Origin: a bacterium
GTDB lineage: Bacteria; SM23-81; DAOVCL01
Assembly (NCBI GenBank): GCA_029932675.1
Contig: JAOZPP010000015.1
Location: forward strand, 1 to 50,837
Direction of reading: 5' to 3'
DNA: 50,837 nt
In this document: piece after piece, positions 9,353-21,970 of the stretch
Position numbering within the stretch: the first letter of the stretch is position 1
How the letters are laid out: every line of letters begins with the position of its first letter
Translations under genes and position numbers: made by a program
The notes under the pieces: model-generated
The model's input: the letters and a program-made list of their open reading frames with translations, nothing else
Databases searched by the model: none
Told to the model about the DNA's origin: nothing

Positions 9353-9916
9353 ATGGCGAAGGAAGAAGAGATAATCAAGAAGGCCCTCTCCGGGGACCAA
9401 AAAGCCTATTCACAAATTCTGGGAAGATATCGGAATGCGGTCTTCGGCCTGGTATACCGGATGGTGAGAGATAGGGAGGAGGCCAATGATCTTACCCAGG
9501 AGACATTCATCAGGGCTTTTAAATCCCTCCCCTATTATAGGCCAAAGTACGCCTTCTCTACTTGGCTCTTTAGGATTGCCACCAATAGGTGCATCGATCA
9601 CCTGAGGAAGAGGAAGGTTAGGACTGTTTCCTTAGATCAGGGAGTAGAGACTGAGACAGGGGAGCTGAGAAGGGAGATTCCGGATTCTTCTACCCGTCCA
9701 GATGAGATCTTCTTTCAGAAGAGGAGAATGGTCTCCATCGAGCGGGCCATCGATTCGCTACCCCCAAAATACCGGGAGGTCATTAGCCTGAAACACAAAG
9801 AGGAGAGGTCTTACGAGGAGATAGCCAGGATCTTGGATCTGCCCTTAGGAACAGTAAAGGTGAGGATATTTCGGGCCCGTGAGCTTTTGAAAAAGAAGCT
9901 GAAAAGCCTTTTATAG
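9353..9916 (+). CDS. ECF-family RNA polymerase sigma factor
   Basis: 187 residues. Region 2 contains DLTQETFIRAFKSLPYYRP and STWLFRIATNRCIDHLRK (about 44-83). Region 4 contains SLPPKYREVISLKHKEERSY and an HTH with LDLPLGTVKVRIFRARELL near the C-terminus. It directs RNA polymerase to a specific promoter set, typically envelope or stress genes. It precedes seven plus-strand genes for exported or membrane proteins, which are plausible targets. No anti-sigma (zinc-finger or RskA-like) gene follows it, so how it is held inactive is not apparent. Confidence 0.93.
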   Translation: MAKEEEIIKKALSGDQKAYSQILGRYRNAVFGLVYRMVRDREEANDLTQETFIRAFKSLPYYRPKYAFSTWLFRIATNRCIDHLRKRKVRTVSLDQGVETETGELRREIPDSSTRPDEIFFQKRRMVSIERAIDSLPPKYREVISLKHKEERSYEEIARILDLPLGTVKVRIFRARELLKKKLKSLL

Positions 9917-10020
9917 CAATCAGCTCAGCCACCTATAAATTTACCCCCTTTCATCACTTAGTCTCTCACCCTCATGCAACGCCCCGAGGCATTCAAATAA
10001 CTTAAGCAGGCGATTCAGAT

Positions 10021-12648
10021 ATGAAAACAATCTTGTTGGCTTATCTTGTAACTCTTTTATCAGTAGCCCTCTCCTGGGCAGAGGAAGGAACTTCCCAGGT
10101 GAGGGCATTCCGCACCACGGAGGGAATAAAGATAGACGGCAGGCTTAAGGAGGGGGCCTGGAGCAACCCCGGCATCTCCGGATTTATCCAGAAGAACCCA
10201 AACGAAGGCCAACCGGCAACCCAAAAAACCGAGGTCTGGGTCGCTTACGACGACGAGGCCCTTTATGTGGCTGCGCGTATGTGGGACACGGCACCGGACT
10301 CGATTGTAGGCCGTATAGGCAGACGTGATGCTGGGCTTAACTGTGACGCTTTTGTAGTTTATATAGACTCATATCATGACAAGAGAACTGGCTTCTACTT
10401 CTGGATTAACCCCTTAGGCTCTGTGGGAGATGGGACCCTCTCTAACGACTCCTGGAGCGATGACACCTGGGATGGAGTGTGGGAGGGCGCTGCGCGCATT
10501 GACGGAAAGGGGTGGACCGCAGAATTTCGCATCCCTTACTCTCAACTGCGATTCTCCAGGAAAACCAGGTATGTTTGGGGGATCAACTTCAACCGTTATA
10601 TCGAGAGGTACAACGAAAGCGATTACTTGGTTATGGTGCCCAAGAAGGATTCGGGTTTCGTCTCCCATTTTGCCGATCTGGTGGGGATCGAGGGAATAAA
10701 CCCTCCCAGGCGCTTAGATCTTCTCCCCTATCTGGTGACCAGTGGGAAGTTCCTCCAACATGAAGCCGGCGATCCCTTTCATAAGGGGTTTGAGTTCTAT
10801 AAGAACCTGGGCGCGAACCTGAAGCTGGGGTTAGGGCCCAACCTCACCCTGGATGCTACGATAAACCCAGACTTTGGGCAGGTGGAGGTTGATCCTGCTG
10901 TGGTCAACCTTTCAGCATATGAAACCTATTACGAGGAGAAGCGCCCCTTCTTCATCGAGGGGATGGACATCTTCTCCTTTGGCCAGCGGGGCTCAAACAG
11001 CAACTGGGGTTTTAACTCAGCGGTCCCCCAATTCTTCTATAGCCGACGAATTGGCCGCCCTCCTCAAGGATCGGTAACCCACACGGGTTTTATGGACCTA
11101 CCAGTTAACACCACAATCCTGGGGGCAGCTAAGATCTCTGGCAAGCTTCCCGGTGGTTGGGAGGTGGGAACGATCCACGCCTTAACTGCACGTGAATTCG
11201 CCGATATAGACACCGCAGGCGTTCGCTTTAAGCAGGAGGTTGAGCCCCTCACCTATTACGGGGTAATCCGCACCTTTAAGGATTTGAACCAAAATCGGCA
11301 AGGCATTGGGTTTATGGGGACCGCCGTAGTCCGTAACTTCAGTGATGATTCCCTCAAAAACGAGATGGGGAAGGCGGCAGTTGCCTTAGGCATAGACGGC
11401 TATACCTTCTTGGATCGGGGGAAGACTTGGGTGATAAATGGTTGGCTGGGGGGATCAGAGGTCTGGGGTGAAAGGAACTTCATAGCTGCCCTGCAGGAGG
11501 CCCCGCAACGCTACTATCAACGGCCGGATATCCACTGTGCCCATTTAGACTCAAATCGCACTTCCCTCTCCGGCTGGGCGGGAAGGGTCTCCCTCAACAG
11601 GCAGAAGGGCAACTTCTACCTCAACTCCGCCCTGGGGGTTAACTCTCCGGGGTTTGAGACAAACGATTTGGGGTTCCATTGGCGAAGCAATTTGATCAAC
11701 CACCATCTGGTATTGGGCTACCGCTGGTTTCAGCCGGGGAAGGTCTTCCGTCAAAAATTTGTCAACCTCATTGCGGCGCGCAATTGGGATTTTGACGGAA
11801 ACAAGACCTCCGAGGTCTATATGCTCTTCCTCAACGGCCAACTGGTCAATTACTGGGGGTTTAACTGTGGCTTTGGGGTAAATCCAAGCACCTTGAGCAA
11901 TGAGGAGACCAGAGGGGGGCCATTGATGAGGTCTCCAGGAGGGTATTTCGGCAACTTCTTCATCTATAGCGACAGCCGCAAGCCCGTAGTCCTCAATTTT
12001 TTTGGCAGTTACCATTCTTCCCCGTCTGGAGGGAGATCTTACTATTTCAGGCCGGGCATAGAGTGGAAGCCGGCAAGTTTCCTCACGCTGGAACTGAATC
12101 CAGAATACCAGTGGGCGCACTCCACCGCCAGTTGGGTCGTTGCCCAGCCGGACCCAACTGCAACTGCTACCTATGGCTCTCGTTACGTCTTCTCCGCATT
12201 GGAGCAGAGGGAGCTTTCGGCATCGCTGAGGATGAACTGGACATTTACCCCAAAGCTCAGCTTACAATTGTATATGCAACCCCTCTTGGCTTCCGGGGAT
12301 TACTCTGATTTTAAGGAGTTGGCCAGACCAAAGAGCTATGAGTTTAATCACTATGGTTCAACGATCGAGTACGCTAATGGGGCTTATACGGTTGACCCAG
12401 ATGGGCCAGGACCAGCAGAAAGTTTCTCCTTTAGAGATCCCGACTTCAACTACAAGTCCTTGCGAGGAACGGTGGTCCTTCGCTGGGAATTCCTCCCAGG
12501 TTCCACAATCTACCTGGTATGGACCGAGGACAGAGAAGACCATAGGGATCCAGGGGAATTCCACCCCGGACGGGATCTATTCCACCTCCTAACGGCCAGG
12601 CCAAACAACATCTTCCTCTTTAAACTGGCCTACTGGTGGAACCTCTAA
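10021..12648 (+). CDS. DUF5916 protein with N-terminal CBM9-like domain
   Basis: 875 residues with an N-terminal signal peptide (LLAYLVTLLSVALSWA). Residues about 30-220 are a family 9 carbohydrate-binding-like domain, including IDGRLKEGAW, VWVAYDDEALYVAARMWD and GWTAEFRIPYSQLRF. The remainder is DUF5916, rich in aromatic beta strands and probably an outer-membrane beta-barrel; it includes the conserved stretch TLDATINPDFGQVEVDPAVV. The family is common in FCB-group bacteria; its function is unknown, possibly glycan binding at the surface. It follows the sigma gene by about 100 bases. Confidence 0.9.
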   Translation: MKTILLAYLVTLLSVALSWAEEGTSQVRAFRTTEGIKIDGRLKEGAWSNPGISGFIQKNPNEGQPATQKTEVWVAYDDEALYVAARMWDTAPDSIVGRIGRRDAGLNCDAFVVYIDSYHDKRTGFYFWINPLGSVGDGTLSNDSWSDDTWDGVWEGAARIDGKGWTAEFRIPYSQLRFSRKTRYVWGINFNRYIERYNESDYLVMVPKKDSGFVSHFADLVGIEGINPPRRLDLLPYLVTSGKFLQHEAGDPFHKGFEFYKNLGANLKLGLGPNLTLDATINPDFGQVEVDPAVVNLSAYETYYEEKRPFFIEGMDIFSFGQRGSNSNWGFNSAVPQFFYSRRIGRPPQGSVTHTGFMDLPVNTTILGAAKISGKLPGGWEVGTIHALTAREFADIDTAGVRFKQEVEPLTYYGVIRTFKDLNQNRQGIGFMGTAVVRNFSDDSLKNEMGKAAVALGIDGYTFLDRGKTWVINGWLGGSEVWGERNFIAALQEAPQRYYQRPDIHCAHLDSNRTSLSGWAGRVSLNRQKGNFYLNSALGVNSPGFETNDLGFHWRSNLINHHLVLGYRWFQPGKVFRQKFVNLIAARNWDFDGNKTSEVYMLFLNGQLVNYWGFNCGFGVNPSTLSNEETRGGPLMRSPGGYFGNFFIYSDSRKPVVLNFFGSYHSSPSGGRSYYFRPGIEWKPASFLTLELNPEYQWAHSTASWVVAQPDPTATATYGSRYVFSALEQRELSASLRMNWTFTPKLSLQLYMQPLLASGDYSDFKELARPKSYEFNHYGSTIEYANGAYTVDPDGPGPAESFSFRDPDFNYKSLRGTVVLRWEFLPGSTIYLVWTEDREDHRDPGEFHPGRDLFHLLTARPNNIFLFKLAYWWNL

Positions 12649-12682
12649 GAAATATCAGCCTTACCTGAGAAACTGTGGAAAG

Positions 12683-13735
12683 ATGCAAAGCGTTAACCAC
12701 TTAATCTTAGCCACCTCCCTTATCCTCCTGGCCTCTGCTGGTGTGGAGGCAAGGGGAAGGTATGAGTATCCCCTCTCCCAACAGTTGGAGATTGAACCGG
12801 GGACCAAGGTGATCATAGAGAATTCAGCGGGAGATATCGAGCTGCGCCAGGGATCCCCTGGACAGTTGACCATCGGCGGGAAGAAGGTGGTCAAGGCCTC
12901 CTCCCAGCGAATTGCCGATGCCGAGGCAAAGAGGATAAAGATAGAGGTAGAGAAGGGGAAGGGAAAGGTCCGTATCTGGGTAGAGGATGGGCATCGGAGC
13001 AGGATTTTGTTCGGGATCGGGAAGAGGGTCTCCAGTTGGGCTGACCTTAGCCTCCTGATCCCCCCGAGGTCTCACTTGGAGGTTAATTCCACCAGCGGAG
13101 ATATAAGGGCAAAGGGAATGGAAGGGAGGCTCATCGCCAAGACGGTAAGTGGAGACCTCTCTTTGGAGGGTTTCGTAGGGCCTGTTTTCGTCCACACCAC
13201 CAGTGGTGACCTTAACCTAAGAGGAATAGTGGGGGATGTTAAGGTGGAGGGAACCAGCTCAGACGTGGATTTAGCAGGGATAAAGGGAAACATAGAGATA
13301 AGCACCACCAGTGGGGATGTAAGTAGCCAGGACGTGGAAGGTCACCTCACCGTGGAGGGGACAAGCGGGGATGTGCAGATAACCAGGCTAAGAGGAGACT
13401 TAGAGGTCTCCCTCCATTCGGGAGAATTAAGTGCCAGTGGGATCGTGGGTGGGGTGAAGGTGGAGACAACGAGTGGAGATGTCTACATTGGGACCTCACT
13501 TCTGGGGGATGAGAACTATCGGGTTGATACTTCGAGCGGGGATGTCACCTTCAAAATTAAGGAGACTAGCTCATTCAATTTAGTGATCGATACAGCCAGT
13601 GGAGAGATCGATGTCAAAGCACCCCTGGTAATTAAATCCATCTCCAGGAACCGTTTGATAGGAAGGGTAGGGGCTGGGGGACCAATGGTGAGGATCACCA
13701 CCGCAAGCGGAGATGTGGAACTCTTCTCTCGGTGA
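12683..13735 (+). CDS. DUF4097 beta-solenoid surface protein, TSGD-repeat type
   Basis: 350 residues with a signal peptide ending near GVEARG. From about residue 130, seven units of 18 residues each begin with SGD or a variant (SGDIRAKGMEGRLIAKTV and so on), a regular repeat that predicts a right-handed beta-helix as in DUF4097 proteins. It is probably periplasmic or on the cell surface; molecular function is unknown. It starts 34 bases after DUF5916, and its TGA overlaps the possible GTG start of the next gene. A paralogue with TNGG repeats lies at 18232-19032. Confidence 0.88.
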   Translation: MQSVNHLILATSLILLASAGVEARGRYEYPLSQQLEIEPGTKVIIENSAGDIELRQGSPGQLTIGGKKVVKASSQRIADAEAKRIKIEVEKGKGKVRIWVEDGHRSRILFGIGKRVSSWADLSLLIPPRSHLEVNSTSGDIRAKGMEGRLIAKTVSGDLSLEGFVGPVFVHTTSGDLNLRGIVGDVKVEGTSSDVDLAGIKGNIEISTTSGDVSSQDVEGHLTVEGTSGDVQITRLRGDLEVSLHSGELSASGIVGGVKVETTSGDVYIGTSLLGDENYRVDTSSGDVTFKIKETSSFNLVIDTASGEIDVKAPLVIKSISRNRLIGRVGAGGPMVRITTASGDVELFSR

Positions 13736-15474
13736 GATCGTTCTCCGAGAAGACGACAATAGATATGGTTACACAAACCCAAGGGGGAGAAATAATACAC
13801 AAAGAGAGGAAATTGACGAGGATAATCTTGACAGGGTTGTTGATGGCCGGACTTGTCGGTTGTGCTCCTGTGCAGAAAGAAAAGGGATTTAGGGAAGTAG
13901 CTGGTAGGGTAGAGAGGGTTCCAGAAAAAATGGTTTCTATCACCGTGGACCCCCGAATGGAATTACTGGCTATAGTTCAGCACTTCACTTCCTGGGCTCA
14001 AAAGGGGCATATAAAAAGCAAGACTGCATACAAGGATGATGTCGACCATTATTTTGGAAGGTTCAAAGATCATCCAGTCGTAGCCTATTTCGAAAATCTG
14101 ATTAACTCCAATTTTGCTTACGATGCGCCAGTTCAGTTCATGCTCTACCATAACGATCCCCCAGCGCTTGTGCAAAAAGCTCCATACTCGGACTACTTGA
14201 TTAAAAGAGCAGGGGGTGAGGATAACCTGACGGAATTCGCTAATGAACTAAGAAGTTTTGCTCGCAGGACAAACTTCATGCGGTTCTATCAGGCCCATAA
14301 GCCCCTGTATGACACCTTAATTGCGGAGGTGGACTCATTATTTGATGGGCAAAACTACGTTCAGACCCTTGAAGATTTTTATGGTGAATCGCAGAACAGC
14401 TATAATCTCCTCCTCTCGCCCCTATTTTCAGGGAACTATGGGATACCAATAAAGAGCGGAGCAGGGTATGATCTCTATGCTGTAATCGGCTCCTGTTCAC
14501 TCCGGGGGAAGCGCACCACCTTTGCCTGTCTCAATTACCTTGAAAGTATAACCCTACACGAATGGAGCCATCCTTTTGTAAACCCCCTGATAGACCAAAA
14601 CTATGCACTCTTTGAAAAATCTATTGCTTTGTTTGAACCTATCAAAAGGATGATGCAAAGACAAGCTTATCCCAATTGGAGGGTTACCCTCTATGAGCAC
14701 TTAGTACGTGCTTGTGGCGAGGTTCATCTGCGAGCTAAGCTCCACAAAGATTTCAATAAAAGGAAAGCCTTGGAATACCAGGAAGGAAAGGGGTTCTGGT
14801 ACATCAGCTATATGGACAGTCTGCTCTCCGTTTATGAAACCCATCGAAAGCAATATCCGACCTTCAGCCAATTTGTGCCAATTATCGCTGATAGACTCAG
14901 CCAAATTTCCGTTGCAGATCTACCAGAGAGGATAACCACCTTTAGAGGTCCCTTAGATGCCATCTTCTCTCGCACCGATTGTATCCATCTCATATATCCA
15001 ACTGCTATTGATGAAGAGTCAATCAACGAGGTTAAAAAAGATCTGGAAAACTTTGCCAGATTTCTTTCTTCTGCCCGCATAGAACCTGTGCTTATGAGCG
15101 ATAAAGAGGCTTTGGAGACCGATTGGCAAGATAAAGTTGGCTTTATCTTCGGCAATCCCAGGAGTAACTTGTTCCTTGGGCGACTGGAAATCGGAATTCC
15201 CTTGAGGTTTCGTGATAATGCAATAGAATTTGGAGGGAAAAGATATGAAGGGAGAGGGATACTCTTAATCTCCTGTATGCCGAACCCATTCAATAGGAAG
15301 CTTCCTTTTACTTTATGCATTGCCAACAGGCCGGAAGACCTGATTGGAGCCGGTTCAAGAATTAGAGGCCCCAGTGAGTGGTACGTAGATTATATCATTT
15401 TTCGCAGTGATGAAAAATTAGATGCGGGGTTGTATCATAAAGAGAAAGGCAAATGGTCCCTAACTCCTCAATAA
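13732..15474 (+). CDS. DUF4932-like HExxH lipoprotein (putative metalloprotease)
   Basis: The open frame starts with GTG at 13732 (580 residues). A better start may be TTG at 13813, which follows GAGAGG and gives a compact lipoprotein signal, with LVGC as the lipobox. A zinc-binding motif HEWSH lies at 276-280 (numbering from the GTG), and a downstream glutamate in RACGEVHLRAKL could be the third ligand. This agrees with the DUF4932 family, predicted metal-dependent peptidases. The C-terminal 200 residues have an alpha/beta layout without recognisable motifs. It overlaps the preceding DUF4097 gene by 4 bases if GTG is used. Substrate unknown. Confidence 0.8.
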   Translation: MRSFSEKTTIDMVTQTQGGEIIHKERKLTRIILTGLLMAGLVGCAPVQKEKGFREVAGRVERVPEKMVSITVDPRMELLAIVQHFTSWAQKGHIKSKTAYKDDVDHYFGRFKDHPVVAYFENLINSNFAYDAPVQFMLYHNDPPALVQKAPYSDYLIKRAGGEDNLTEFANELRSFARRTNFMRFYQAHKPLYDTLIAEVDSLFDGQNYVQTLEDFYGESQNSYNLLLSPLFSGNYGIPIKSGAGYDLYAVIGSCSLRGKRTTFACLNYLESITLHEWSHPFVNPLIDQNYALFEKSIALFEPIKRMMQRQAYPNWRVTLYEHLVRACGEVHLRAKLHKDFNKRKALEYQEGKGFWYISYMDSLLSVYETHRKQYPTFSQFVPIIADRLSQISVADLPERITTFRGPLDAIFSRTDCIHLIYPTAIDEESINEVKKDLENFARFLSSARIEPVLMSDKEALETDWQDKVGFIFGNPRSNLFLGRLEIGIPLRFRDNAIEFGGKRYEGRGILLISCMPNPFNRKLPFTLCIANRPEDLIGAGSRIRGPSEWYVDYIIFRSDEKLDAGLYHKEKGKWSLTPQ

Positions 15475-15672
15475 GATCGAGGGAGGGTCAAACACTCATT
15501 AGGATTTTTGGCCCACATCTAAATTGTGGCCATACAAAGACCTACTGTAAAATGGATCCACAGACCTTACTTTGAAAAAAGATGGGCCGTAAATCAATTA
15601 CTTACGCAACCTAAAAATAGTGAACGAGGATTTTTTACCCTTTTCCCGGCTACCAGACATTAAAAAGGGGAA

Positions 15673-16836
15673 ATGATGAGAGGCAAAATAATTAAAGGAA
15701 GATATTGGCTATTTTTACTTTTCCTTACTCCTCTAACTGCTCTTGGCCAAGGCTCTAATCCGCAGGACTCTACCTCAGATACAACCCTGGGCAGGGCAAC
15801 TGAGGTTCATATCGGAAGCGAAGGGATAACCATTGTCAGGGGGGGGAGGGGAAAAGCCTCCACTCGCATCTATCTTGACCGGGATAAGCTCTCCAAATTG
15901 GGTTCTCTCCAATCCCCTGAATCCGAGGGGGGCGGTATCGTCAAATTTGGTGAGGATATCACTATCGAGGAAGGCGAAGTGGTAAACGGGGATGTGGTGG
16001 CCATAGGGGGAAATATTCGGATCGCGGGCACAGTAGTGGGGGATGTATCTGCAGTAGGGGGAGATGTGATAGCTGAGTCCACCGCGGTAATCAGGGGGGA
16101 TGCAGTGAGCGTAGGGGGAAAGGTAGTGAAGGAACCCGGAGCGCAGATTAGGGGGTCCCGGATAGGGACCCACTTTCCTCCAAAGTTCCTTTTCCGTTGG
16201 GGCACTAAGGGTTGGTACCCTCCCCATCCCTATCACCCTCGCCTCTCCCCAGGGGCTGGATTTACCTTCGTTCTCTTCTTCGTCTTCCTCTCCCTCTCCC
16301 TTTTGATCACCCTCTTTCTCCCCACGCACATCCAAAGGATAAATGCTGCCATAGAAAGGGGATTTTTGAAGGCTGGCTTAGTTGGTTTCTTAGTAGATAT
16401 CCTCATCCTGCCGGTCTTCGTTATGCTCCTTATCACAGTTATCGGCATTCCAGTAGCCCTTTTGGTAGAACCAATTGTGCTTTTTGTAGCTATGGTCTTA
16501 GGGTTCGCAGGGATTAGCCTCTTCTTAGGTGAGAAGGTAAATCAAACCACCAGCTTAACCCTCTCCTCCCCTTTAGCCAAAGTATTGGTGGGCGGTGTAA
16601 TTATAGAACTCCTCCCCTTCTTGGCGGTCCTGTTTGGGATAGGGGGGGAGATATTCTCTCCGTTCTCCTGGGTTTTGAACATCGTCGGTTGGTTAACCCT
16701 TTACATTGGGTGGACGGTGGGATTCGGCGCGGTCTTCCTCACCAGATTTGGTTCCAGGACTCCAGCGCCCCCTGAGGTTCCCAGGGCACAGCCCCCCAAA
16801 CCCCCAGAAGAGGTTAAGGAGCCACCCAAGGATTAG
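15673..16836 (+). CDS. Bactofilin-like polymer-forming domain joined to membrane domain
   Basis: 387 residues with a signal peptide (WLFLLFLTPLTALGQG). Residues about 95-165 form short hexapeptide-like turns (GEVVNGDVVAIGGNIRIAG and related), typical of the bactofilin beta-helix. A proline-rich linker is followed by four membrane helices (about 200-345) and a proline-rich tail (PPKPPEEVKEPPKD). The polymer-forming part would lie outside the cytoplasm, unlike classical cytosolic bactofilins. Two ATGs in a row after AAGGGG leave a one-residue start ambiguity. It is probably an envelope scaffold; role inferred. Confidence 0.85.
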   Translation: MMRGKIIKGRYWLFLLFLTPLTALGQGSNPQDSTSDTTLGRATEVHIGSEGITIVRGGRGKASTRIYLDRDKLSKLGSLQSPESEGGGIVKFGEDITIEEGEVVNGDVVAIGGNIRIAGTVVGDVSAVGGDVIAESTAVIRGDAVSVGGKVVKEPGAQIRGSRIGTHFPPKFLFRWGTKGWYPPHPYHPRLSPGAGFTFVLFFVFLSLSLLITLFLPTHIQRINAAIERGFLKAGLVGFLVDILILPVFVMLLITVIGIPVALLVEPIVLFVAMVLGFAGISLFLGEKVNQTTSLTLSSPLAKVLVGGVIIELLPFLAVLFGIGGEIFSPFSWVLNIVGWLTLYIGWTVGFGAVFLTRFGSRTPAPPEVPRAQPPKPPEEVKEPPKD

Positions 16837-17136
16837 GAGGAAATCCTCAGCCCAACCGGACCAGCTCCCAAGATTCGTCTTTTATGGCTGTGCGCTCATA
16901 TTCCCTGATCTGGATGGAGCAGAGAAGGGACCGCGTGATATTACCGCTTCTCTCTTGATGAACAAGATCTTAAAATTTGGGTCCAACTTGTTGCCCGTAA
17001 TTATCTCACCTTGACGGCTTGAGGCGAAGTTCCGCTAATGATAATGGGAGAACGAGGGAATGAGGGACCATTGACCAATGGCTATGAAGGGGCCTGCGAG
17101 ATGAAGCTATAGAAAAGAACCACCAAGGGGGAAATT
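16837..17136. other. Intergenic region, nothing recognised
   Basis: Exactly 300 bases between two plus-strand genes. The short frames inside lack family resemblance, and no consensus promoter spacing or terminator was found. A ribosome-binding site (AAGGGGGAAA) for the next gene lies at the right end. Confidence 0.4.
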
Positions 17137-18210
17137 ATGAGAAAATGCACGTTATATCTCTTCATATCTTTGTTACTTCCCTGCCAATTAGCATATTCTC
17201 AAGGAACAACGCCAAAGCACCGCAGCCTAAACCTAACCATAAAGGGTTATGGAATAAGCCTGGGCAATTCGCCAGGGGTAAACGGACTGAGGGTTAACCT
17301 CGTCGACCATGGATTGAAACAAGTTAATGGCCTCAACTTCACCCTTTGGAAGCCGAAGGAGAATAAGGGTGCCGTGATCAATGGCCTGGCCATCGGCTTA
17401 GTTGCCCCGGAGGCCGAGAGGATAAATGGGGTTTCAATCGGTTGCCTTGGTGTTATCGGGCTTACAAGCTTAAATGGCTTAAACATAGGGGGGTTAGCTG
17501 CTGTCTCCAATGGGCAGGTGAGGGGGATCACCTTGGCAGGCCTGGGATTAGTAGGCCAAAAGGAGATCCTCGGGGTAAACATCGCCGGTTTAGGCACTGT
17601 CTCTGAAGGAGAGGTGAGGGGGCTAAACATAGGGGGGCTCGGCTTAGTGGGGGAGAAGGGGATTGTGGGGATAAACCTAGGTGGGTTGGGCGTTGTTTCG
17701 GAAGGAGAAGTAAGAGGGGTTACGGTAAGCGGTCTGGGAATAGTTGGCCGTGGTGGACTTAAAGGCATAAGCATCGCTGGGTTGGGTGCTGTCTCTGAAG
17801 ACGAGGTAAAAGGAGCTACTTTCGCCGGTTTAGGCGTCGTAGGGCAGAGGATAAGGGGGATAGCCCTCACGGCAGGTGAAATCAGGGCTACGGAGAGGGT
17901 GGAGGGGTTAGCCCTGGGAGCTTATCGGGTAAAGGCCAAAGCCATAAGGGGGATTGCCCTAACCTGTTTAATGACAACTTTTGAATCCTCGCAGGGTTTG
18001 ATCATCGGTCCCTATCTAAAGTCGCAATCCCTGAAGGGGCTTTCTATAGCGGCCCTTAACTCCATCAGCCGCCACCAAGTGGGCATCACCATCGGCCTGA
18101 TTAACTATGCCCAACAGCTAAAGGGGATCCAGATTGGGTTGTTCAACTATGCCGGAAATAACCCCAAATACCTAAAGATATTGCCCCTTGTCAATGCCCA
18201 CCTTGGATAA
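17137..18210 (+). CDS. Exported repeat protein, LA_2272 surface-repeat type
   Basis: 357 residues with a signal peptide ending near QLAYSQG. The body is built from 16-residue units of the type G-(V/I)-(N/T)-(I/L)-x-GLG-x-V-x-x-x-x-x-x, best seen at about 127-242. Units alternate between VG(Q/E)K-like and VSEGEVR-like halves, giving a 32-residue super-repeat. This resembles LA_2272-family surface-repeat proteins. A beta-solenoid is likely. It lies between the bactofilin-like and second DUF4097 genes, in keeping with a surface role; biochemical function is unknown. Confidence 0.8.
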   Translation: MRKCTLYLFISLLLPCQLAYSQGTTPKHRSLNLTIKGYGISLGNSPGVNGLRVNLVDHGLKQVNGLNFTLWKPKENKGAVINGLAIGLVAPEAERINGVSIGCLGVIGLTSLNGLNIGGLAAVSNGQVRGITLAGLGLVGQKEILGVNIAGLGTVSEGEVRGLNIGGLGLVGEKGIVGINLGGLGVVSEGEVRGVTVSGLGIVGRGGLKGISIAGLGAVSEDEVKGATFAGLGVVGQRIRGIALTAGEIRATERVEGLALGAYRVKAKAIRGIALTCLMTTFESSQGLIIGPYLKSQSLKGLSIAALNSISRHQVGITIGLINYAQQLKGIQIGLFNYAGNNPKYLKILPLVNAHLG

Positions 18211-18231
18211 AACCATGAGAAGGGGGACGCC

Positions 18232-19032
18232 ATGTGGGGAAAACTATTGGTTTGGCTACCTGGCTGCCTTGCACTCCTCTTCTGGGGAGTGCAAACATCA
18301 TCTGCTCATCAATACGAGGAGACCTTAGAAAAGGCTTTCGCTTTTAAGCCTGGGGGAAAGCTCATCTTGATCAACACCAATGGCAAGATCAGCGTTGGAG
18401 TGTGGGACAAGGAAAAGATCCTCTTGCGGGCAGAGCTGAAGATCGAGGCCCAGACTCCGGAAGAGGCAAAACGGATAGCGGAAAAGGCGATAGAGATCGA
18501 TCTCACGGATACAGAAATTGAGATTAAGACGAAGAGGGAGAAGGCCACCAGCCTATGGAAGTTGCTCTTTGGGAAGGAGGAAAAGCCAAAGGTGCGGAGG
18601 ATGAACTACGAGCTCACCTTGCCCAGAAAAATTGATCTGGATATGAGGACGGTAAACGGAGGGATCGGTATAGCCGATATCCAGGGGAGAATAGAGGTGA
18701 GGACCACCAACGGGGGGATAGACGTCTCTGGGGTCTCCGGTTTTATCAATGCCCGGAGTACAAACGGGGGGATTAGGGCGGAGCTAAGGAAGGCCGATCC
18801 CCAGGGGTCGATCTCCCTCACCACTACCAACGGGGGAATAAGGCTATCTCTGCCCCAGTCTATTAAGGCAGAGATCTTAGCCAAGACGGCCAATGGGAGG
18901 ATTCACACCGATCTTCCCCTGGAGGTCCAGGGAAGCTTTAGCGGTGGGCGGATTAAGGGGAAGATCAATGGAGGAGGGACCCTAATTGAGCTCCATACAG
19001 CCAATGGAGGAATAGATATCCTATCCCAATAG
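18232..19032 (+). CDS. DUF4097 beta-solenoid surface protein, TNGG-repeat type
   Basis: 266 residues with a signal peptide (LLVWLPGCLALLFWGVQTSSA). A short alpha/beta N-terminal part carries charged helices (TPEEAKRIAEKAIEIDL). From about 138, units of about 18 residues begin with (T/V)NGGI, predicting a right-handed beta-helix. It is the paralogue of 12683-13735, but with asparagine-glycine turns instead of serine-glycine-aspartate. Start ATG follows AAGGGGGA. It lies 14 bases before the M1 peptidase gene and is probably co-transcribed. Confidence 0.87.
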   Translation: MWGKLLVWLPGCLALLFWGVQTSSAHQYEETLEKAFAFKPGGKLILINTNGKISVGVWDKEKILLRAELKIEAQTPEEAKRIAEKAIEIDLTDTEIEIKTKREKATSLWKLLFGKEEKPKVRRMNYELTLPRKIDLDMRTVNGGIGIADIQGRIEVRTTNGGIDVSGVSGFINARSTNGGIRAELRKADPQGSISLTTTNGGIRLSLPQSIKAEILAKTANGRIHTDLPLEVQGSFSGGRIKGKINGGGTLIELHTANGGIDILSQ

Positions 19033-19045
19033 GTGGAGGAGAGAG

Positions 19046-21970
19046 ATGGCCAAAAGAGTATTCCTTTATATCCTCTTTACCCTTTTCCTTGTGGCCCGCT
19101 CAGGCTTAGCTTGGCAGCAAAGGGTAGATTATCGGATTAAGGTGCAACTGAATACCAAGCTTCATATGCTCCAGAGGGAGGAGACCTTAATCTACACCAA
19201 CCAATCGCCGGACACCCTTCATTGGGTCTGGTTCCACCTCTACCCCAATGCTTACCGAGATAATCAGACCGTCTTTGCCCGCGAACAGAGGAGGATGGGC
19301 TCCAGCCGCTTCGCCTTAGCCACCTCTGGGGAGAGGGGTTACATCGAAATCGATTCCCTATTGGCCGATGGGATAAAACCAAAGAGGGAGTTCAAAGAGG
19401 ACGACGGGACCGAGCTAAAGGTTTACCTCCCCCACCCCCTCCTCCCAGGCAATTCGCTCTGCTTCTGCATCGGGTTTCGGGTGAAGATCCCCCATATTTT
19501 CTCCCGCCTGGGCCACAAGGGAAGGCACTACGAGATCACCCAGTGGTATCCCAAAATCGCCGTCTATGATCAATGGGGATGGCATCCCGATGGTTACCAC
19601 GCCATCGGGGAGTTCTATGGGGAATACGGCAACTTCTTGGTAGAGATTACCCTTCCTGCAGATATGACCGTGGGGGCCACCGGGGAACTCATTGGCCCCC
19701 CTGAGGAGGTGGCCAGGTTAAACTACCTGGCCCTCCAGGGGGCCAATCTGGATAGTTTAAGGGCAAGGGGAGAGAAGAAGAAGAAGATCAAAAAAATCAT
19801 CAGGTTCCTCGGGAAAAGGAGAGAGCCGGCTGCGGAGCTCAAAACCTTGGTCTTCCGCGCCCAGAGGGTGCACGACTTCGCCTGGTTTGCCGATGCGCGG
19901 TTCATCCTCAAAAGGGCCAACTACCAAGGGGTGACCATAAATGTCCTCGTCCTCCCTCAAGATGAGGAGAGATGGAAGGATGTGCTTGAATGGGTGCGAG
20001 ATACACTCAAATATTATGGCAACTGGTATGGGAGATACCCCTATCCCCAGATCACGGTAGTGGACGGAAGCTTGGCCGCCGGAGGGGGGATGGAGTATCC
20101 CAATGTGGTGGTGATCTCCCTTCGGCCACTATCCTGGACAAGGGTATTGGAAGAGGTGGTGATGCATGAGGTAGGCCATCAATGGTTCTATGGGATATTG
20201 GGTTCAAATGAGATGGACGAGGCCTGGCTTGATGAGGGAATAAACACCTTCTCCGAGATCAGGTATATGGAGGCTAAATACGGCCGAGAGGAGAACCTCT
20301 TCTCCTGGCCCAAAAGGTTGAGGTTTTTGCCCAACATTGGCGACCGCTGGACGCAGACCTTCCTCTATTGGTTGACGGCAACCAATGGGGTGGAAAAGTC
20401 CACCCTCACCCCCTCTTATAGCTTCATAGACGAGCCCTTGGCCTACCAAGTGGGTACTTATGCCAAACCTGCCTGGATGATGTTTATGCTCAAGTATCTG
20501 GTAGGGGACGAAGTATTCGATCGGATTATGCAGACCTATTTCCGCAGATATAGGTTTAAGCATCCCCATACAGAGGACTTCATCGCAGTGGCCGAGGAGG
20601 TTAGCGGCCAGGATCTAAAATGGTTCTTCAGCCAATGGTTGGAGACCACCAAGACCTGTGATTATGCAATTACCAAGCTCAAAACCCGGCGGGAGGCAGG
20701 TCTCTTTAAGACAGAGGTGGTGGTGGAGAGAAAGGGAGAGGCGGTTATGCCTATAGAGGTTTGTCTTCAGGCTGCGGAGGGAGAGAAGGTCATCCAGCAC
20801 TGGGATGGAAGGGGGAAGAGGACAAAGATCCATTTCCAGACGAGGTCCAGGCCGAAGTGGGCTCAAATCGACCCGGGATGGGGACTATTGGAGGTAGATC
20901 GCTGGAACAACCGCAAGCCTCAGAAGGTGACTATCCATCCGATCTTTGACTTTCCGGACTTCGATAGTTATCAAATCTTCTACGGCCCCTCCCTCTGGTT
21001 TGATCGGGTCGACGGGGCTACCCCTGGGTTATGGCTTCAGGGAAGGCAATTCTTAGATTTCGGCCCTTTTAAAGGGAAAAACCAGTGGATGTTGGGCACA
21101 TCTTGGGGGATAAGGAGCCACGTCTTAAACTGGAAGGCAAGCTATCATACCCCTCTTCCCTTAGGGGGAAGGTGGTCGAGGATCCACCTTCAGGCCAGCC
21201 GTTACCATGGCCGGATATCCTCTTCTGTAGGTTTGAGCTGGCACTTCAGCCCCCACCTCCTCCTGGGCCCAGCACATGAGCTCAGCCTAAAAGGCGAATA
21301 CCTCAAGGTGGAGAACAGGAAATATGTCTATAGGGACGACTGGTCTCCCGGGAAGGTGATCGGACCCGCCATCGACTATTCCTTCTCCTTCCCCGGCATC
21401 CACTTCTTTGGCAAATGGAACTTCTCCCTGAAGTTAGGCCGAAAGGTCTGGGGCGGGGAATACCACTTCAATAAGAGGAGTTTGGAATTAAGGAATAGGC
21501 TCAGGTGGACCAGATGGCTCAATGTGGGACTGAGAACCTTCACCGGATATGTGGGGGGTTCACCTCCCAATCAAGAGCTATTCTTCCTCTCCGGGGGCAC
21601 GGCCCTCACCCCTGGCCATGGGATAATCTGGGAGGAAAAAGGGCGGCTCTCCCCCCAGGAACATCTCTTCGTTAGCGGGGACGGAAATCTGAGGGGATAC
21701 TACGGTCAGCATCTAAAAGGGAAGGCCATCTGGGCCATCAACCTCTCCCTTCCCTTCCCCCATACCCCGCTTTTCTGCTTCTGGGATATGGGGAATGTGG
21801 GATCTAAGCATTCCCTGCGGTCCGCAAGGATGGACTCCGGAATAGGGATGAGGTTTGGTCCCCTGCGGGCGCAGTTTCCCTTCTGGATAAACCGCCCACC
21901 AAGGGGGGAAAGAAAATTTACCTTCCGCTGGCTGGTTGACTTAAACCTCCGCACCCTGGTATCATTTTAG
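19046..21970 (+). CDS. M1-family metallopeptidase fused to Omp85-like beta-barrel
   Basis: 974 residues with a signal peptide (LYILFTLFLVARSGLAW). Residues about 25-560 are an M1 aminopeptidase-like unit: GGGMEYP (near 347), HEVGH zinc motif (374-378) and third ligand in DEGIN (Glu397). After a beta domain (to about 635), the last 340 residues alternate polar and aromatic strands. They contain Omp85/BamA-like signatures: GDGNLRGYYGQHLKGKAIW, a FWDMGNVG strand and a closing GIGMRFGPLRAQFPF block, ending in phenylalanine as outer-membrane barrels do. ATG follows GGAGGAG. This suggests a peptidase held at or passed through its own outer-membrane barrel, like type Vd proteins. M1 assignment is strong; the barrel assignment comes from motif reading. 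Confidence 0.88.
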   Translation: MAKRVFLYILFTLFLVARSGLAWQQRVDYRIKVQLNTKLHMLQREETLIYTNQSPDTLHWVWFHLYPNAYRDNQTVFAREQRRMGSSRFALATSGERGYIEIDSLLADGIKPKREFKEDDGTELKVYLPHPLLPGNSLCFCIGFRVKIPHIFSRLGHKGRHYEITQWYPKIAVYDQWGWHPDGYHAIGEFYGEYGNFLVEITLPADMTVGATGELIGPPEEVARLNYLALQGANLDSLRARGEKKKKIKKIIRFLGKRREPAAELKTLVFRAQRVHDFAWFADARFILKRANYQGVTINVLVLPQDEERWKDVLEWVRDTLKYYGNWYGRYPYPQITVVDGSLAAGGGMEYPNVVVISLRPLSWTRVLEEVVMHEVGHQWFYGILGSNEMDEAWLDEGINTFSEIRYMEAKYGREENLFSWPKRLRFLPNIGDRWTQTFLYWLTATNGVEKSTLTPSYSFIDEPLAYQVGTYAKPAWMMFMLKYLVGDEVFDRIMQTYFRRYRFKHPHTEDFIAVAEEVSGQDLKWFFSQWLETTKTCDYAITKLKTRREAGLFKTEVVVERKGEAVMPIEVCLQAAEGEKVIQHWDGRGKRTKIHFQTRSRPKWAQIDPGWGLLEVDRWNNRKPQKVTIHPIFDFPDFDSYQIFYGPSLWFDRVDGATPGLWLQGRQFLDFGPFKGKNQWMLGTSWGIRSHVLNWKASYHTPLPLGGRWSRIHLQASRYHGRISSSVGLSWHFSPHLLLGPAHELSLKGEYLKVENRKYVYRDDWSPGKVIGPAIDYSFSFPGIHFFGKWNFSLKLGRKVWGGEYHFNKRSLELRNRLRWTRWLNVGLRTFTGYVGGSPPNQELFFLSGGTALTPGHGIIWEEKGRLSPQEHLFVSGDGNLRGYYGQHLKGKAIWAINLSLPFPHTPLFCFWDMGNVGSKHSLRSARMDSGIGMRFGPLRAQFPFWINRPPRGERKFTFRWLVDLNLRTLVSF

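Follow-up and report, generated by a model that had tools for sequence, protein, structure and literature searches.

A widespread fusion of an M1 aminopeptidase to an Omp85-type outer-membrane barrel

The 50,837-nucleotide stretch of bacterial DNA analyzed here (hereafter the window) encodes a single-chain protein in which an M1-type zinc aminopeptidase is joined directly to a 16-strand Omp85-type barrel. Its open reading frame (19046-21970, forward strand, limits confirmed exactly) is unbroken and specifies 974 amino acids. This M1-Omp85 protein is a real and widespread member of the enzyme-on-Omp85-barrel kind, apparently undescribed so far, and lies outside type Vd. A preliminary description made from the sequence had proposed both this architecture and a self-exporting peptidase: the former stands, whereas the latter is unsupported. 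The features discussed below are as follows:

18232-19032, forward strand: DUF4097 (toastrack) gene, 13 bases upstream of the M1-Omp85 gene
19046-19111, forward strand: signal-peptide-like N-terminal segment, residues 1-22 (sequence by eye; helix 2-18 in the model)
19112-20869, forward strand: M1 aminopeptidase part, residues 23-608, with an N-terminal beta domain, a catalytic domain and a beta-sandwich at 540-608 (Pfam, AlphaFold model, PDB matches to IRAP and ERAP1/2)
20084-20098, forward strand: GGMEY, GxMEN-type exopeptidase motif, residues 347-351 (sequence, alignment)
20165-20236, forward strand: HEVGH (374-378) to zinc ligand E397 (sequence, alignment)
20459-20461, forward strand: Tyr472, aligned invariant Tyr
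20969-21967, forward strand: 16-strand Omp85-type barrel, residues 642-974 (two AlphaFold models, Foldseek, VIA-align, hhalign)
21563-21724, forward strand: long loop at the L6 position, joining strand 11 to strand 12; residues 840-893, RGY 883-885 (model strand map)
21779-21793, forward strand: FWDMG (FxDxG motif), residues 912-916, within strand 13 (model strand map)

Peptidase and barrel in one chain

The M1 assignment, first drawn from HEVGH...E and GGMEY, is borne out by a Pfam Peptidase_M1 match at residues 315-531 (E 6.2e-22, 78.7 bits vs. a cut-off of 27.7). The zinc motif HExxH-x18-E is complete, GGMEY retains the glutamate of the GxMEN consensus with tyrosine in place of asparagine, and both this glutamate (E350) and Tyr472, presumably the tyrosine that is invariant in M1 active sites, occupy their columns in 54/54 rows of alignment A4, in which high motif conservation is partly due to the fetch patterns used (one of them HExxH-based); Tyr472 is likewise present in 14/14 rows of alignment A2. 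Judged by its sequence, the catalytic motif set is complete (HEVGH, E397, GGMEY, Y472). NCBIfam returned PepN and LTA4H matches only for the four family members tried, all far under cut-offs. Known M1 aminopeptidases such as ERAP1/2, IRAP, PepN and LTA4H carry a helical C-terminal domain after the beta-sandwich; the present protein shares their catalytic domain and zinc motif, but has a barrel after the beta-sandwich.

The AlphaFold model of the whole protein, built from the 54 sequences of A4, reached a mean pLDDT of 89.1 and a pTM of 0.88. In a PDB search its M1 fold match spans about 630 columns (ERAP1/2, IRAP), and the 50 matches listed were M1 enzymes only, so the barrel was also modeled alone (22 sequences; pLDDT 83.1, pTM 0.81). 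A structural test was needed because the Pfam Omp85 profile (PF01103) scored at the border of significance: residues 795-961 matched with E 4.3e-4 and 20.3 bits for the whole protein, 23.7 bits for the barrel alone and 24.1 bits for the frame with neighbours, against a cut-off of 24, and 4 of the 22 family barrels matched at E 0.01 or better.

Sixteen barrel strands were counted in both models. Foldseek returned 116 PDB matches for the barrel at E 0.001 or better, and every one of the 50 listed was TamA, BamA/BAM or Sam50. VIA-align placed it closest to TamA (Z 19.4, 4.9 A over 278 residues) and BamA (Z 19.4, 4.3 A over 270 residues), with FhaC, CdiB and Toc75-type chains also among the matches. 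Structure prediction and fold search thus recovered the 16-strand Omp85 barrel anticipated from the LRGY block and the FWDMG strand, rather than soluble beta-sandwiches or a barrel of another kind. The barrel profile also matched the Omp85 proteins of the same genome (hhalign E 3e-10), as well as a short POTRA-less Omp85 encoded there (L126). Since this own-genome match comes together with 50 listed PDB matches that are all Omp85, the resemblance is more than chance.

In Omp85 proteins, the arginine of loop L6 pairs with an aspartate of strand 13. The models contain a sole long loop, of 54 residues between strands 11 and 12, which bears LRGY (882-885), and they place FWDMG in strand 13; as modeled, these positions are the Omp85 layout of L6 and of the conserved FxDxG. 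The POTRA-like domain that the preliminary description had considered between peptidase and barrel was not found by Pfam on the 974-residue protein, and the intervening region (540-608) is all-beta in the AlphaFold model and is read as the M1 beta-sandwich. We thus limit the claim to an Omp85-type barrel, as distinct from a POTRA-bearing Omp85 protein.

Distribution, selection and loss of the active site

The source is a draft genome of 116 contigs, in which an assembly chimera or the chance joining of two genes might be suspected. A sister genome (G001) contains a 79%-identical orthologue, with similar identities for the M1 part (79.8%) and the barrel (78.4%). Evolutionarily, dN is far below dS in each half (0.124 vs. 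1.11 for M1, 0.129 vs. 1.08 for the barrel), which indicates that purifying selection acts on both. With this selection, and with full-length relatives in many independent genomes (see below), we reject a chimeric origin as extremely improbable.

Barrel profile A5 was built from 22 sequences, 11 of which come from the set of 145 “relatives” genomes; searched against that set, it identified 14 genomes at E <1e-25, each time within an ORF of 852-1114 aa. The next-best matches were at 4e-17, then 1.6e-12 and weaker, and the few examined include BamA-like proteins with POTRA-type N-termini. One protein from the window's own phylum (L005) matched the barrel model weakly (E 0.014), yet aligns along its length. 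In a scan of genome contigs that used fetch patterns including the one built on HExxH, 74 of the best 80 among at least 585 confirmed loci have an ORF that extends at least 291 residues past its M1 domain; among the other six, five are cut by the contig end and one has an early stop. Organisms represented among the loci include Hymenobacter, Rufibacter, Phaeodactylibacter, Flavobacteriales, Crocinitomicaceae, Chitinophagales, Chlorobiota and Chrysopegis (Kryptonia), as well as WOR-3, TA06, Neomarinimicrobiota, Gemmatimonadota, Latescibacterota, Krumholzibacteriota and Aegiribacteria. Overall, the taxonomic survey suggested at the outset found full-length relatives in Bacteroidota and in eight or more further FCB-type lineages, and none in viral contigs.

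In the phylum to which the Hymenobacter genome G152 belongs, the Bacteroidota barrel profile A7 (38 sequences) matched 43 of 247 genomes, a count of the barrel alone with N-termini unread. Every positive genome has a single copy, the weakest match being at E 4e-57; the ORF measures 927-1055 aa in 42 cases, and the remaining copy sits in a 501-aa frame that has a stop. Phaeodactylibacter xiamenensis carries tandem M1-barrel genes (L107:4971-7946 and L107:7940-11002). On a quick, unrooted M1 tree of 59 rows (seven short, truncated or contig-end rows dropped, and Bacteroidota thinned to one in three), the presence or absence of the barrel takes two changes if four rows whose tails are unassigned are disregarded, and three if these are scored as barrel-less. 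Because the tree is unrooted, a single origin of the fusion is not established.

The Bacteroidota barrels are divergent. Profile A7 aligns with A5 over 311 columns (hhalign 99.2%, E 7e-20), and a direct hhalign comparison of A7 with the own-genome Omp85 profile gave no match (E 0.1), so that these tails are tied to Omp85 via A5. Across A4, the position of the RGY arginine is occupied by Arg in 15 and by Lys in 20 of the 54 rows, and the arginine is gone from most Bacteroidota members.

In some members, the active site has diverged as well. HExxH is lacking in L141/L039 (G057) and L143 (G124); their matches to the M1 model are weak (E 2e-11 and 4e-8, respectively, at a search size of 1000), and those to the barrel model have E 4e-40 and 7e-19. 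A WOR-3 protein (L042) has HKIGR at the zinc motif and Lys in place of E397, and two proteins of the window's own phylum (L004, L005) keep HExxH and have lost the GxMEN glutamate. By alignment, catalytic residues are lost and the barrel is kept in at least three lineages. Because the barrel outlives the active site in some lineages, a non-enzymatic role is also possible and catalysis would not be the sole role, which supports the idea that the fused protein may have a second role, as a binding or assembly module.

Such losses in L141/L039, L143 and L042, along with a full Omp85 fold that includes RGY and FxDxG, would fit a barrel that retains Omp85-type assembly or translocation activity, with the M1 fold replacing POTRA as client-binding module and trimming secondary or lost in places. 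We consider this reading unlikely: nearly all other rows keep the catalytic motifs (which the fetch patterns favor in part), and most Bacteroidota members, as noted, are without the RGY arginine.

Genomic context and other Omp85 proteins

The M1-Omp85 gene is the last of a same-strand run (window 9353-21970) that comprises, in order, an ECF sigma factor (9353-9916), a CBM9/DUF5916 protein (10021-12648), a DUF4097 protein, a DUF4932 protein, two proteins without clear family, a second DUF4097 protein and M1-Omp85. This run looks like an envelope regulon. The DUF4932 protein (13732-15474) contains HEWSH, an HExxH pattern, and is possibly another metallopeptidase by this motif. One further gene in the window (17137-18210) encodes a protein of 357 aa that consists of short, near-regular repeats (VxGVNIxGLG-like) and for which the Pfam search was negative.

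Of the genes in this run, only the adjacent DUF4097 gene recurs beside M1-Omp85, in sister genome G001. A sigma-like gene was seen in L085, and L110 contains a DUF5916-like piece, neither of them in a shared gene order. Counting same-strand genes within 250 bases, the family loci have 48 downstream and 42 upstream neighbors, of which 34 and 33 were scanned. Downstream genes include metallophosphoesterases (10/34) and SppA-type S49 peptidases (6/34), and upstream genes include thioredoxin-like proteins (10/33) and, in a separate count, proteins with Por secretion tails (10/33). Neighbors thus differ across the wider family, and no universal partner was found among the 34 downstream and 33 upstream genes scanned.

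The same genome also encodes BamA-like and TamA-like proteins, and a patatin-POTRA-Omp85 protein of PlpD type (L163:684-3272, contig C21). Three more of its genes (L160:462-3500 on C51, L161:697-3522 on C108 and L162:392-3364 on C55) encode proteins that combine Peptidase_MA_2 with a PD40 propeller and have an Omp85-type C-terminus. HExxH occurs in all three, and PF01103 is above cut-off in two, the barrel of L162 being assigned from a below-cut-off score of 19.2 bits and an RGY motif. On these profile and motif matches, the genome has two different metallopeptidase-Omp85 architectures.

Orientation and comparison with known systems

In a 16-strand barrel the N- and C-terminus lie on the same side, and known Omp85 proteins have L6, the loop that follows strand 11, at the cell exterior. 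As the strand order sets the N-terminus opposite the RGY loop, the M1 domain is expected to be periplasmic. The protein is thus probably an outer-membrane-anchored, periplasm-facing M1 aminopeptidase. Under this model, Sec would export the protein and BAM would insert its C-terminal barrel in the outer membrane, while the M1 enzyme would stay folded at the periplasmic face, where BamA has POTRA (a location suggested by strand order). There it may trim free N-termini, such as those of peptides and of damaged or stalled envelope proteins. Computed support comprises the fusion itself, intact motifs, a 16-strand fold with RGY on L6, no POTRA and wide occurrence.

The order signal-enzyme-barrel resembles that of autotransporters, and the barrel, with or without BAM, could be imagined to carry M1 across the outer membrane, yielding a self-exporting surface peptidase with M1 as passenger. 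Such display is documented for AaaA of Pseudomonas aeruginosa, an outer-membrane-tethered zinc aminopeptidase like the one proposed here, but an M28 enzyme that is surface exposed by a classical autotransporter (PMC3426542). For M1-Omp85 we judge self-export quite improbable: the modeled Omp85 topology sets the N-terminus in the periplasm, the long L6 bears the RGY lock motif and, by analogy with known Omp85 proteins, would plug the lumen, and the chain has neither POTRA nor a demonstrated translocation path. Type Vd, which the preliminary description had cited as a precedent for export, was overturned as such for PlpD, a patatin-Omp85 protein whose enzyme domain was shown in 2024 to remain periplasmic (PMC11116518). 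This comparable protein also supports the periplasmic reading of M1-Omp85.

PlpD and FplA resemble M1-Omp85 in joining an N-terminal enzyme and a C-terminal 16-strand Omp85 barrel in a single chain, but their enzyme is a patatin lipase, with one POTRA before the barrel, in place of M1 and no POTRA. We rejected type Vd membership, since Pfam finds neither patatin nor POTRA in the protein, whereas the PlpD-type protein of the same genome has both. Type Vd passengers characterized up to a 2019 review were lipases or esterases only, according to its accessible text (PMC6555100). Heinz and Lithgow distinguished ten Omp85 subfamilies and accepted POTRA-less ones, among which “Metallo,” “WD40” and “noNterm” likewise have an Omp85 barrel behind a non-POTRA N-terminus; in contrast to M1-Omp85, “Metallo” is based on PF00149, and an M1 member is absent from the subfamilies in the accessible part of that paper, where the word “peptidase” does not occur (PMC4104836). 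PF00149, on which this “Omp85-metalloprotease” subfamily is founded, is the calcineurin-like phosphoesterase family in Pfam.

BepA belongs to another peptidase family and is without a barrel of its own. As a periplasmic Zn-metallopeptidase acting at BAM (PMC8423444), it may offer a functional parallel. The accessible main text of a 2025 study of the BAM complex from Flavobacterium johnsoniae (PMC12611786) does not contain the word “peptidase.” No description of an M1-Omp85 protein was found in the open-licence literature searched, in agreement with the preliminary description, which knew of none.

It is tempting to speculate, albeit as an unlikely scenario, that Bacteroidota-like superphyla possess in M1-Omp85 a separate and ancient outer-membrane machine, insertase- or quality-control-like, in which the M1 fold replaces POTRA as client-handling module and binds, and usually trims, the N-termini of envelope proteins, dead versions being pure binding platforms.

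Omp85 proteins with a patatin or metallophosphoesterase domain were known so far, and a true metallopeptidase fused directly to an Omp85 barrel appears to be new. Its occurrence in cultured genera such as Hymenobacter makes it testable in culturable bacteria, which would show whether Omp85 barrels are general platforms for periplasmic enzymes. M1-Omp85 also provides a second case for the question raised by PlpD, namely whether “autotransporter-like” Omp85 enzymes stay inside.
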